Shown here piece after piece: positions 26,736 through 29,323 of a stretch of 38,424 bases of DNA (the stretch's first letter is position 1; every line of letters starts with the position of its first letter). Made by a program: the position numbers and the translations under genes. The DNA comes from a virus: positions 1-38,424 of the IMG/VR virus record IMGVR_UViG_3300034121_000350. One strand, 5' to 3'. The notes below the pieces were generated by a model. The model saw only the letters and a program-made list of their open reading frames with translations, was not told the origin of the DNA and did no database searches.

Positions 26736-28016
26736 TTAGAATGGTGCGTGATTCTTGTCCGGGTGTGGTATTGTGAACTCGTCATCGGGTTGCGCCCAGC
26801 TTGGCGGGCTGCTCCTGCCGACGATGCCGTAACGCATCATGCAAGGTGTAGTGATCTTACCTGGTCTTCCGTTCCGATTCTTAAGAACATCAATGGTCAT
26901 CTGATCAGCATCGCGCGACAGGTGTATCCTGACGTGGGCATCTTTCTCAAACTGAATCGTGCCGTGGTCTTCACCCTGCTTGTTGACGTGGACGATCAAA
27001 AGAATTGGAACGTTCAGCTTCCTCGCTGTTGACCGAATGCCCATCGATATGGCTTCCAGTTCCTGCACCTTGTTGGTGTATAGCTTTCGGTCTGCGCTCA
27101 TCAGCTGTGCGTAGTCCACGACTATTAGACCTGCTCCGTTCTTCACTCTGTTCTCCGCCTTGGCTGCGAACTCGTCAATGGTCATGCTGCCACTATCGTC
27201 TATGTCGAGCGTGCCAAGGATGTCACCGTAGTTCGATGCCGCCTGTGCCAGCCTGTTGCGCTCCTGTGCCGTCATCCGGTCTACCATCACCGACTGAATG
27301 TCCACCATTGCGATCTGACATAACGCTCGCTTGATCAGTTCATCAGCGGGCATCTCCAGCGAGACAAACCACGGTTTGATTCTTGGCATCAGGTTGAGAA
27401 CCACCGACAGAACGAACGCCGTCTTGCCCACTCCAGGGTCTGCACGAATCGCCACCACATTGCCGGGAAGAATCCACACCAGCGAATCCAAACCTGCCAC
27501 CTGTAGGTATGTCGGTGAAGGTCTGTCGCTGCTGTTCATCAATTCGAACGCTCGTGTTCCTGCGTTCACGTCCGGCTTGTCTTCCGCCATTGATGCCTTC
27601 GCCAATGCCCGCGTTGCAGGTGCGATCAGTTCGGTGTATTCCTTCCCTTCGATGGTCCCGCGAACAAGTTGCTCACCAGCATCCTTCAAGATTCTTGAAG
27701 CGTAGCACTCACGGATGATTGCAGCGTGTGCTTCGAAGTTCCTTGGTGCTGAAACTCTGAGCGTCCATCCGACCATCTTCGCCATCGTCTCGCCGATTCC
27801 TGCGCTCTGCTCTCGCTGTAACTGCACAGCGATGGTCAGCAGGTCCACGCCTGTTCCTCCGCGCCATACCGAAAGACAGGCTTCGTATGCTTCGCGGCAT
27901 TCGTCATTCCCGAAATGTTCTGCTCTGAGTATCTGTGCAGCAGTAGACATCACCGCGTGGTCCAGCAATATCTGCCCGATCACTATCTGTTCAACGTCTG
28001 TTGGTATCAGTTCCAT
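26736..28016 (-). CDS. Replicative DNA helicase, DnaB family
   Basis: The 426-residue helicase has Walker A 'DPGVGKTA' (193-200), 'SLEMP' (219-223), Walker B 'LIVVDYAQLM' (297-306) and arginine-finger-side 'HLSRDADQMTIDVLKNRNG'. An N-terminal helical domain (1-150) is present, as in full DnaB. It unwinds DNA 5' to 3' at forks. It starts 2 bases after the initiator gene, whose product likely loads it. Confidence 0.93.
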   Translation of the reverse strand: MELIPTDVEQIVIGQILLDHAVMSTAAQILRAEHFGNDECREAYEACLSVWRGGTGVDLLTIAVQLQREQSAGIGETMAKMVGWTLRVSAPRNFEAHAAIIRECYASRILKDAGEQLVRGTIEGKEYTELIAPATRALAKASMAEDKPDVNAGTRAFELMNSSDRPSPTYLQVAGLDSLVWILPGNVVAIRADPGVGKTAFVLSVVLNLMPRIKPWFVSLEMPADELIKRALCQIAMVDIQSVMVDRMTAQERNRLAQAASNYGDILGTLDIDDSGSMTIDEFAAKAENRVKNGAGLIVVDYAQLMSADRKLYTNKVQELEAISMGIRSTARKLNVPILLIVHVNKQGEDHGTIQFEKDAHVRIHLSRDADQMTIDVLKNRNGRPGKITTPCMMRYGIVGRSSPPSWAQPDDEFTIPHPDKNHAPF

Positions 28017-28018
28017 CT

Positions 28019-28798
28019 TCAGATCATTTTATCCATGCCCATGACTGCCCATTGCTCACGGGGGACCATGTCTTTCGTTATCGGTCCACCTGGTTCGATG
28101 CCGTACTTCGATTCGATCTCCAGCCGGATTCTCTTCTGCTCGCTCATCTTGTCTTCCGGTGCTATTTCGAATGGCTTGCCGTTCTTCGGTGCAAGGTCTT
28201 TCGGGTCAACCGGGAATCTCCATCCCTTTGCCATTGCAAGGTTAAGACCGTCAAAGCATTCTTCGCCCTTCGTGTAGTACTTCGCAAGAAGGTTCACCGC
28301 GTGCTGCTCTGTGCTGTCCGACTTGTACTTGGCCCGATGCGTTGTGAGTCGGTACGCCTTGAACTCTTTCCAAGTCTTCAAGACGTTTGGACCTGCCCAT
28401 GCGGGCCACTCAATTCCACTACGTGCATTCTCATTCTCATTCTCATTTACATTAACATTTACATTGGGGGTTCGCTTGGGGTTTCGCTGGGGTTTCTTTG
28501 GGGTTTCATCTTGTATCCCCTGTGGGGTTTCGGTGGGGTTTCCTTGGGGTTTCTTTGGTCTTCCTCCCTTGCCTCCGTGCTGCGCTCCCTTCTGCCCGTT
28601 CTCCCACTTACGATAGTTGGCATCCACGTTAGGCTTGATCAGTTGCCACACGACCTGTGCGATGCCATGCAGCTTCGGCTCTTCCTGGTTCAGACCGTAG
28701 TGGATGATCGCTTCGTACAGCGCGACCTTCACATCAGCGTCAAGTTCCTTGATCGCCTCGTACCAGCTGCGGTAGATGATTATGCTATCTCGCGTCAT
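28019..28798 (-). CDS. DUF6291-like replication protein containing the candidate origin
   Basis: The 259-residue protein has an N-terminal helical domain ('YRSWYEAIKELDADVKVALY', about 9-28, and 'VVWQLIKPNVDANYRKWENG'), then Lys/Pro repeats (about 78-108), an NVNVNVNENENENA tract (about 112-125), and a C-terminal helical domain. It is next to DnaB, so it is probably a replication initiator or helicase loader, resembling DnaD-type organisers. Its middle contains iterons that are conserved as DNA in all three frames, listed separately. The start is ATG 28798; the 117-bp space upstream holds promoter P4 and a possible 31-codon frame. Confidence 0.7.
   Translation of the reverse strand: MTRDSIIIYRSWYEAIKELDADVKVALYEAIIHYGLNQEEPKLHGIAQVVWQLIKPNVDANYRKWENGQKGAQHGGKGGRPKKPQGNPTETPQGIQDETPKKPQRNPKRTPNVNVNVNENENENARSGIEWPAWAGPNVLKTWKEFKAYRLTTHRAKYKSDSTEQHAVNLLAKYYTKGEECFDGLNLAMAKGWRFPVDPKDLAPKNGKPFEIAPEDKMSEQKRIRLEIESKYGIEPGGPITKDMVPREQWAVMGMDKMI
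28428..28466 (-). repeat. AT-rich hexamer array, candidate unwinding element
   Basis: Seven AATGNN units run in frame (AATGTA, AATGTT, AATGTA, then AATGAG repeated), encoding the NV/NE tract. The block is AT-rich and sits directly beside the GAAACCCC iterons, as a DNA unwinding element would. Confidence 0.55.
28467..28553 (-). repeat. Seven 11-bp iterons (GAAACCCC), candidate replication origin
   Basis: GGGGTTTC on the plus strand occurs at 28478, 28489, 28500 and, after a gap, at 28524, 28535, 28546, with a degenerate copy at 28467. Spacing within each block is exactly 11 bp, so the copies lie on one DNA face. Because 11 is not a multiple of three, the copies are read in all three frames (ETP, KKP, RNP), so the protein sequence cannot explain the conservation. 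Iterons inside the initiator gene are the lambda O arrangement. Confidence 0.7.
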
Positions 28799-28915: not shown

Positions 28916-29323
28916 TTAAAGATAGAAGTTTCTGATTCTCGTCCAACGTCTGCTCACAGCACCAATGCTTCTGTTCAACTGGCCCGCGATGATCTCCCAC
29001 ATATGGCCTTGGCGGTACAGGTACATGATAGCCTGGTCCTCCGCTAACGACCACGGCAGTTCCTCTTTCAGCGTTTGACGCTGCGTCTTTCCGGGTCGCT
29101 GGTCAAACAAATCCCAGCCACCGTGAGCTTCGTGATAGACCGTTGCTGCCTGTGCGTACTGCTCGTAGGTCTGATATCCAACGCGCTCACCTGCCTGTCT
29201 CTCTTCGTCGGACAAGGTGTGTATCTCACCGTTCAACTGGTAGGTGTATAGACGTGGTGGATAGGTGGATTCGAACGCATCGTCCTCGTTCATCTTCGAC
29301 GGAAGTACCATGACGCTGCTCAT
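28916..29323 (-). CDS. Myb/SANT-like DNA-binding protein
   Basis: The 135-residue protein ends with a three-helix domain: 'LPWSLAEDQAIMYLYRQG', then 'MWEIIAGQLNRSIGAVSRRW' (about 107-126), with the W-spaced Myb pattern. The N-terminal half is acidic and unrecognised. It may control the origin or the adjacent promoter. Its stop lies within promoter P4. Confidence 0.65.
   Translation of the reverse strand: MSSVMVLPSKMNEDDAFESTYPPRLYTYQLNGEIHTLSDEERQAGERVGYQTYEQYAQAATVYHEAHGGWDLFDQRPGKTQRQTLKEELPWSLAEDQAIMYLYRQGHMWEIIAGQLNRSIGAVSRRWTRIRNFYL
28917..28946 (-). promoter_or_regulatory. Promoter P4 upstream of the initiator gene
   Basis: TTG at 28946-28944, a 19-bp spacer and TATCTTTA (28924-28917) match the Bacteroidetes -33/-7 pattern except for the last base. 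It lies within the end of the Myb-like gene, 118 bases before the initiator start, and would also drive the helicase. It lacks the ATGTTAAA element of P1-P3. Confidence 0.5.

Follow-up and report, generated by a model that had tools for sequence, protein, structure and literature searches.

The DUF6291 gene of this phage is very likely its replication initiator, with the origin lying inside the gene. We put the probability of this reading at roughly 0.87; binding, melting and origin firing are all inferred, as there are no experimental data. What we show is that the gene contains phased repeats selected as DNA, that these lie beside the weakest duplex of the genome, that the gene adjoins a helicase gene, and that the repeat sequence is tied to a short arm of the encoded protein. 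The window, meaning the whole stretch of DNA analyzed, is a complete IMG/VR virus record of 38,424 bp. Within it, the DUF6291 gene (28019..28798, minus strand) encodes a 259-aa protein whose residues 5-82 match Pfam PF19808 with 80.4 bits against a cut-off of 27.2 (E 1.1e-22), and its origin layout is common to 170 homologues. The next gene downstream, across a 2-bp gap, encodes a DnaB-like replicative helicase (26736..28016, minus strand; Pfam DnaB_C E 5.9e-31, DnaB N E 1.6e-13), and a YqaJ-like exonuclease and a RecT-like annealing protein are encoded upstream. The gene immediately upstream in this early replication cluster (28916-29323) gave a weak Myb/SANT-like match under the Pfam cut-off (E 3e-4).

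The repeat GAAACCCC occurs in six exact copies in the 38.4-kb window, all inside the DUF6291 gene and all on the minus strand, compared to 0.54 copies expected and with six reached in none of 100 shuffles. These iterons form two blocks at 11-bp spacing: block 1 (28524..28553, minus strand) has copies at 28546, 28535 and 28524, and block 2 (28467..28507, minus strand) has copies at 28500, 28489 and 28478, extended by a degenerate seventh copy, CGAACCCC, at 28467-28474. The blocks are separated by 24 bp and therefore share no common 11-bp register. Between them lies an inverted degenerate iteron, GTATCCCC (28513..28520, plus strand, identified by sequence), which forms CCCC-ACA-GGGG with the last block 1 copy; similar CCCCnnnGGGG pairs are present in homologues L022, L043 and L031. 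The copies are read in three frames, as K-K-P, G-N-P and T-E-T-P in block 1 and as E-T-P, K-K-P and R-N-P in block 2, and lag-11 identity in the window's linker DNA stands 5.1 standard deviations over synonymous-codon shuffles. Two contigs with triple GAAACCCC (L010 and L012) had no DUF6291 gene in the stretch, and we set them aside as apparently unrelated repeats.

Scans of viral and genome contigs recovered 147 distinct DUF6291 proteins, and addition of a blind scan brought the collection to 170 array-bearing genes from phages and prophages. Phase-folded information across these 170 genes was 0.69 bits at period 11 and no more than 0.50 at all other periods from 7 to 20, making 11 bp the dominant period despite several iteron sequences and differing linker peptides. 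Because the period persists in homologues while both repeat sequence and peptide change, selection very likely acts on the DNA, with the linker peptide largely a by-product. Lag-11 z-scores against synonymous shuffles averaged 3.0 over 112 linkers, and in 125 of 139 homologues the iteron cores fell in all three reading frames. Successive cores were spaced by exactly 11 bp in 287 cases, with 31 cases for the runner-up value. Phased triple cores were present in 90 of 111 DUF6291 genes, and none was found outside these genes in 564 kb of flanking DNA, upstream regions included. The blind scan of IMG/VR for (AATGNN)6, which used no protein reference, gave a sample of 77 ORFs, 62 of them DUF6291 genes. 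Neither iterons nor hexamers were found in the fetched stretches of a chromosomal Bacteroidales clade in which DUF6291 is joined to DUF7833 (iteron-less, DUF7833-tailed members L024, L027, L117, L131, L134, L139, L152 and L156), indicating that not every DUF6291 member works as an intragenic-origin initiator.

Immediately beside the iterons, 1 bp past the last CCCC and thus past the degenerate copy ending block 2, begins an array of AATGNN hexamers (28426..28465, minus strand; seven AATG at 6-bp spacing, 25% GC), which we propose as the DNA unwinding element based on its stability, codon use and conservation. The same 1 bp is the commonest distance from last core to first AATG among homologues. 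Of all 40-bp stretches in the window the array has the least stable duplex (rank 1 of 38,385), and its counterparts in 156 loci have a median duplex weakness at the 99.4th percentile. All seven Asn codons in the window array are AAT, against 71 AAT and 256 AAC in 20 window genes. For homologues we defined N-x-N-x runs by protein, avoiding the circularity of arrays found through AATG: in 76 diverse homologues such runs contained 613 AAT and 6 AAC codons compared to 646 AAT and 551 AAC in the rest of the same genes, an AAT share of 99% versus 54%. Of 543 residues that follow Asn, 466 are of the kind with a GNN codon (V, D, E, A or G), as AATGNN demands, and the array is read N-x-N-x in every homologue that has one.

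Most of the preliminary description of this region is borne out by these results. Its two blocks of 11-bp-spaced repeats in three frames were confirmed with six exact copies, as were the block 2 readings ETP, KKP and RNP, and its claim that selection acts on DNA and not on protein held both in homologues and against synonymous shuffles. Persistence of the 11-bp phase in homologues with changed linkers, a test set beforehand, was met across the 170 genes, and an AT-rich hexamer array beside the repeats with DnaB next was likewise correct.

The array has drifted in some loci. In L120, L123, L143, L145 and L297 the hexamer has become RATGNN (GATGTA and similar, peptide VDVD), keeping an ATG every 6 bp with Asn changed to Asp. 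In a Bacteroidales DUF6291 gene with AAGC iterons (L174:3190-3460), (GATAGG)n replaces the AATGNN array and encodes RDRDRDR.

We modeled the protein with AlphaFold2. The DUF6291 domain (residues 1-69; 28592..28798, minus strand), which we propose binds the iterons, an inference, is predicted at a mean pLDDT of 89.7 to have three helices (10-16, 21-37 and 45-69) followed by a flexible basic arm. Searches of the PDB by Foldseek, VIA-align and sequence yielded nothing convincing for this fold, which leaves a kinship with the winged-helix Rep initiators of iteron plasmids neither supported nor excluded. In a viral library the best matches were other DUF6291 proteins, and a few of these carry the annotation replisome organizer or DnaD protein. 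The C-terminal part (28022..28425, minus strand), a putative contact for the helicase or its loader, matches phrog_18589, of unknown function, over residues 127-202. C-terminal halves vary among DUF6291 members: a DnaB_2/DnaD domain occupies this part in 11 of 88 and Phg_2220_C in one, and no DnaB_2 domain was found in the window protein. One locus (L173:2998-3831) has a luxR-type helix-turn-helix after the DUF6291 arm and before the array, and its repeat, AAAACTAG, is a different one.

Similarity over the whole N-domain predicted iteron class poorly (58/144), and we therefore examined the arm as a predictor. The variable basic arm starts directly after the invariant Gly-68; in the window it is NGQKGAQHGGKGGRPK (residues 67-82; 28553..28600, minus strand), of the insertion plus GGRP type. 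Among 118 representatives with less than 80% N-domain identity by position, short GGRP arms accompany AACC iterons (31 genes, plus 6 to 8 with inverted AACCnnnGGTT and a few with AAGC), and GGRP with a seven-residue insertion of the GAEHGKK type accompanies ACCCC. A GGAPxGN arm is paired with CAACC, the insertion together with GGAPxGN is paired with CAACCCC, and arms without GGRP go with AAGC. The associations between arm type and iteron class gave Fisher p values of 1e-18, 3e-17 and 9e-13. When the insertion was scored by length, there were no departures from CCCC among genes with an insertion and an assignable iteron; L031 and L100, which have only two iteron copies and fall under the count threshold, both show ACCCC. 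The weakest rule is the one leading from absence of GGRP to AAGC, as 14 genes without GGRP have other iterons (e.g. TAGCAAA and CAACG types) and AAGC iterons also occur in a few GGRP genes.

For an out-of-sample set we took new loci from other queries and three named records, filtered by BLAST. This left 20 array-bearing genes with less than 80% N-domain identity to the training genes and to each other, 19 of them with an assignable iteron. The arm rule was correct in all 19 of these diverged genes, compared to 17 in the best of 20,000 permutations, with the limit that the GGRP-AACC type makes up most of them. A tree of the N-domain (66 columns) was poorly resolved and placed only 1 to 2 pairs of joint arm-iteron changes on supported branches. 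It is likely, without binding data, that each phage has its own matched initiator-origin pair in which arm and iteron change together. The covariation is indirect evidence, and so far the only evidence, that the initiator binds the repeats, a point on which the preliminary description had asked for a test.

Identities of the gene after DUF6291 were obtained by Pfam search in 64 loci, as the window's own DnaB used as query missed most of them. This gene encodes DnaB in 19, a G39P-type loader in 5, a Toprim protein in 5 and IstB/DnaC in 3, and about half of the downstream genes have no recognized replication domain. The arrangement also occurs in a circular 51-kb Bacteroides finegoldii plasmid record with phage genes, in which DUF6291, ACCCC iterons and hexamers are followed by dnaB. 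The same intragenic layout is found in Clostridia, other Bacillota and Nitratiruptor phages. The preliminary description's origin type for a Bacteroidetes phage thus failed in part, being no speciality of that group, and its expected GC-skew minimum at the repeats was not found: cumulative skew drops steadily across the window with no extremum at the array, and after detrending the extrema lie at 20.7 and 12.4 kb.

Based on these observations we propose a mechanism in which the N-terminal three-helix domain and basic arm bind the 11-bp iterons, an inference that the arm-iteron covariation supports. One protomer would bind per helical turn, and since 11 bp is close to one turn, protomers would line up along the same face of the helix. 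The AATGNN array, whose weak duplex and conservation are shown, lies in phase with the iterons; the initiator complex is inferred to melt this array and may grip one of its strands through the hexamers. The C-terminal domain would then bring the DnaB-type helicase of the adjacent gene, or its loader, to the bubble; the gene order is shown and the interaction inferred. The strictness of the hexamer raises the possibility, speculative and by analogy with the DnaA-trio, that some protein recognizes the sequence of the opened strand. Points that count against this reading include the absence of a skew extremum, the lack of a PDB match for the fold, which leaves DNA binding by the domain inferred, the share of downstream genes without a recognized replication domain and, for the family as a whole, the Bacteroidales clade without iterons or hexamers.

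The alternative that survives best concerns the arm-iteron code and not the origin itself. Arm and iterons might match through linkage only, as parts of one short recombining cassette, with another part of the protein or another protein binding the iterons. In its favor, the two are no more than about 100 bp apart, close enough to be passed on together, and our N-domain tree leaves independent joint changes unresolved. We consider it unlikely because the arm's two features mix freely, each predicting a separate part of the iteron: the insertion gives CC to CCCC, GGAPxGN gives AA to CAA, and both give CAACCCC. Whole N-domain similarity is also a poor predictor, and the arm rule made no mismatch in the 19 new genes.

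A second alternative is that the iterons are operator or partition sites, with DUF6291 a repressor or ParB-like protein acting in autoregulation or segregation and the true origin elsewhere. Initiator iterons can also serve autoregulation; covariation suggests cognate recognition and is silent on its purpose; and the site has no skew extremum. We regard this explanation as very unlikely, as a conserved array of weak-duplex hexamers adjoins the iterons, DnaB, a helicase loader or a primase-like protein is often encoded next, some members have C-terminal DnaD-type domains, and flanking DNA, upstream regions included, has no phased triple cores. A third, that the repeats are a protein feature, a flexible Pro/Asn-rich linker with chance codon repetition, can draw on the segment being always in frame and joining two protein parts and on the constant N-x-N-x reading of the array, but is all but excluded by iterons in all three frames in most genes, an 11-bp spacing impossible as a peptide period, lag-11 identity above synonymous shuffles and the near-exclusive use of AAT in arrays, and a fixed frame is expected anyway, as the other AATGNN frames give Cys, Trp or stop.

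Returning to an initiator with an internal origin, the plan resembles known phage systems. In lambda the origin is made up of iterons and an AT-rich region and sits midway along gene O, and O binds A- and T-rich single strands (PMC7466680). Lambda O/ori-lambda and the lambdoid Stx phages share with DUF6291 a mid-gene origin in which iterons are followed by an AT-rich element, and the lambda O/ori plan in a different family, as first suggested, is supported by the order of N-terminal domain, iterons, AT-rich element, C-terminal domain and helicase or loader gene. DUF6291 differs from lambda O in its short iterons, six or more and 11 bp apart, in having a strict AATGNN array as the AT-rich element, in an iteron that varies with the protein arm, and in that DnaB itself is often the next gene. 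No lambda O model was among the Pfam matches of the window protein up to E = 1, a search that included no profile-profile comparison.

In SPP1, oriL, with direct repeats and an AT-rich unwinding element, lies inside gene 38, and gp38 binds the oriL repeats and works with the loader gp39 and helicase gp40 (PMC6316719). The G39P-type loader genes that follow DUF6291 in 5 of the 64 loci recall this Bacillus phage. SPP1 has a second origin, oriR, whereas we found a single array in the DUF6291 system; DUF6291 is a separate Pfam domain and no gp38-family match was found, in a comparison that covered gene order only. Clostridial-type DUF6291 proteins have a C-terminal DnaB_2, DnaD-like domain resembling those of the Lactococcus phiLC3 and Geobacillus E2 replisome organizers, but the N-terminal domain differs and the window protein has no recognized DnaB_2. 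At bacterial oriC, the DnaA-trio is a short unwinding-element repeat directly beside double-strand binding sites (PMC10797057), much as the hexamers lie directly beside the iterons; the DUF6291 units are 6-bp AATGNN in place of 3 bp, there is no AAA+ domain, and single-strand binding to the hexamers remains speculative.

We infer, without binding data, that DUF6291 follows the organization of lambda O and SPP1 gp38 but binds DNA through a different domain. We do not place it in either family, as no homology was detected, although no sensitive profile comparison was made. Convergence is possible, since we detected no kinship with either family and know of no structural relative of the domain. 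What is new is the proposed initiator domain with its own origin grammar; the intragenic-origin plan itself is already known from lambda and SPP1. Those two were the systems found in the literature on intragenic phage origins, with no DUF6291 family among them, and DUF6291 was unmentioned in the literature searched; subscription papers were mostly outside the scope of both searches.

These results propose a function for a widespread phage family annotated as unknown, and for hundreds of phages and prophages (of Bacteroidota, Bacillota and other bacteria) they predict exactly where the replication origin lies. The arm-iteron code offers a testable system for joint specificity change of initiator and origin, and would aid replicon building for gut bacteria. 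A bolder reading, which we would no sooner back than reject, is that DUF6291 represents a novel type of origin-binding domain whose short basic arm determines the iteron by a modular code (insertion, CC to CCCC; GGAPxGN, AA to CAA; AAGC in the absence of GGRP). The domain would be coupled to a track of strict 6-bp AATGNN units for single-strand loading, the phage counterpart of the DnaA-trio. If true, the origin and incompatibility type of hundreds of uncultured phages could be read from protein sequence alone.

Two further sets of loci are of interest. Three loci (L194, L196 and L199) have AATGNN arrays in phage proteins that do not match DUF6291; these may belong to other initiator families that use the same unwinding element. 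In six loci (L040:3001-3300, L106:3001-3320, L110:2029-2340, L160, L166 and L213:3878-4300) the DUF6291 frame is broken near the invariant Asn-Gly, and iterons, hexamers and the C-terminal part carry on in another frame. A split gene, a programmed frameshift or decay could each account for this break, and in several of the six an ATG overlaps AATGG in the next frame.
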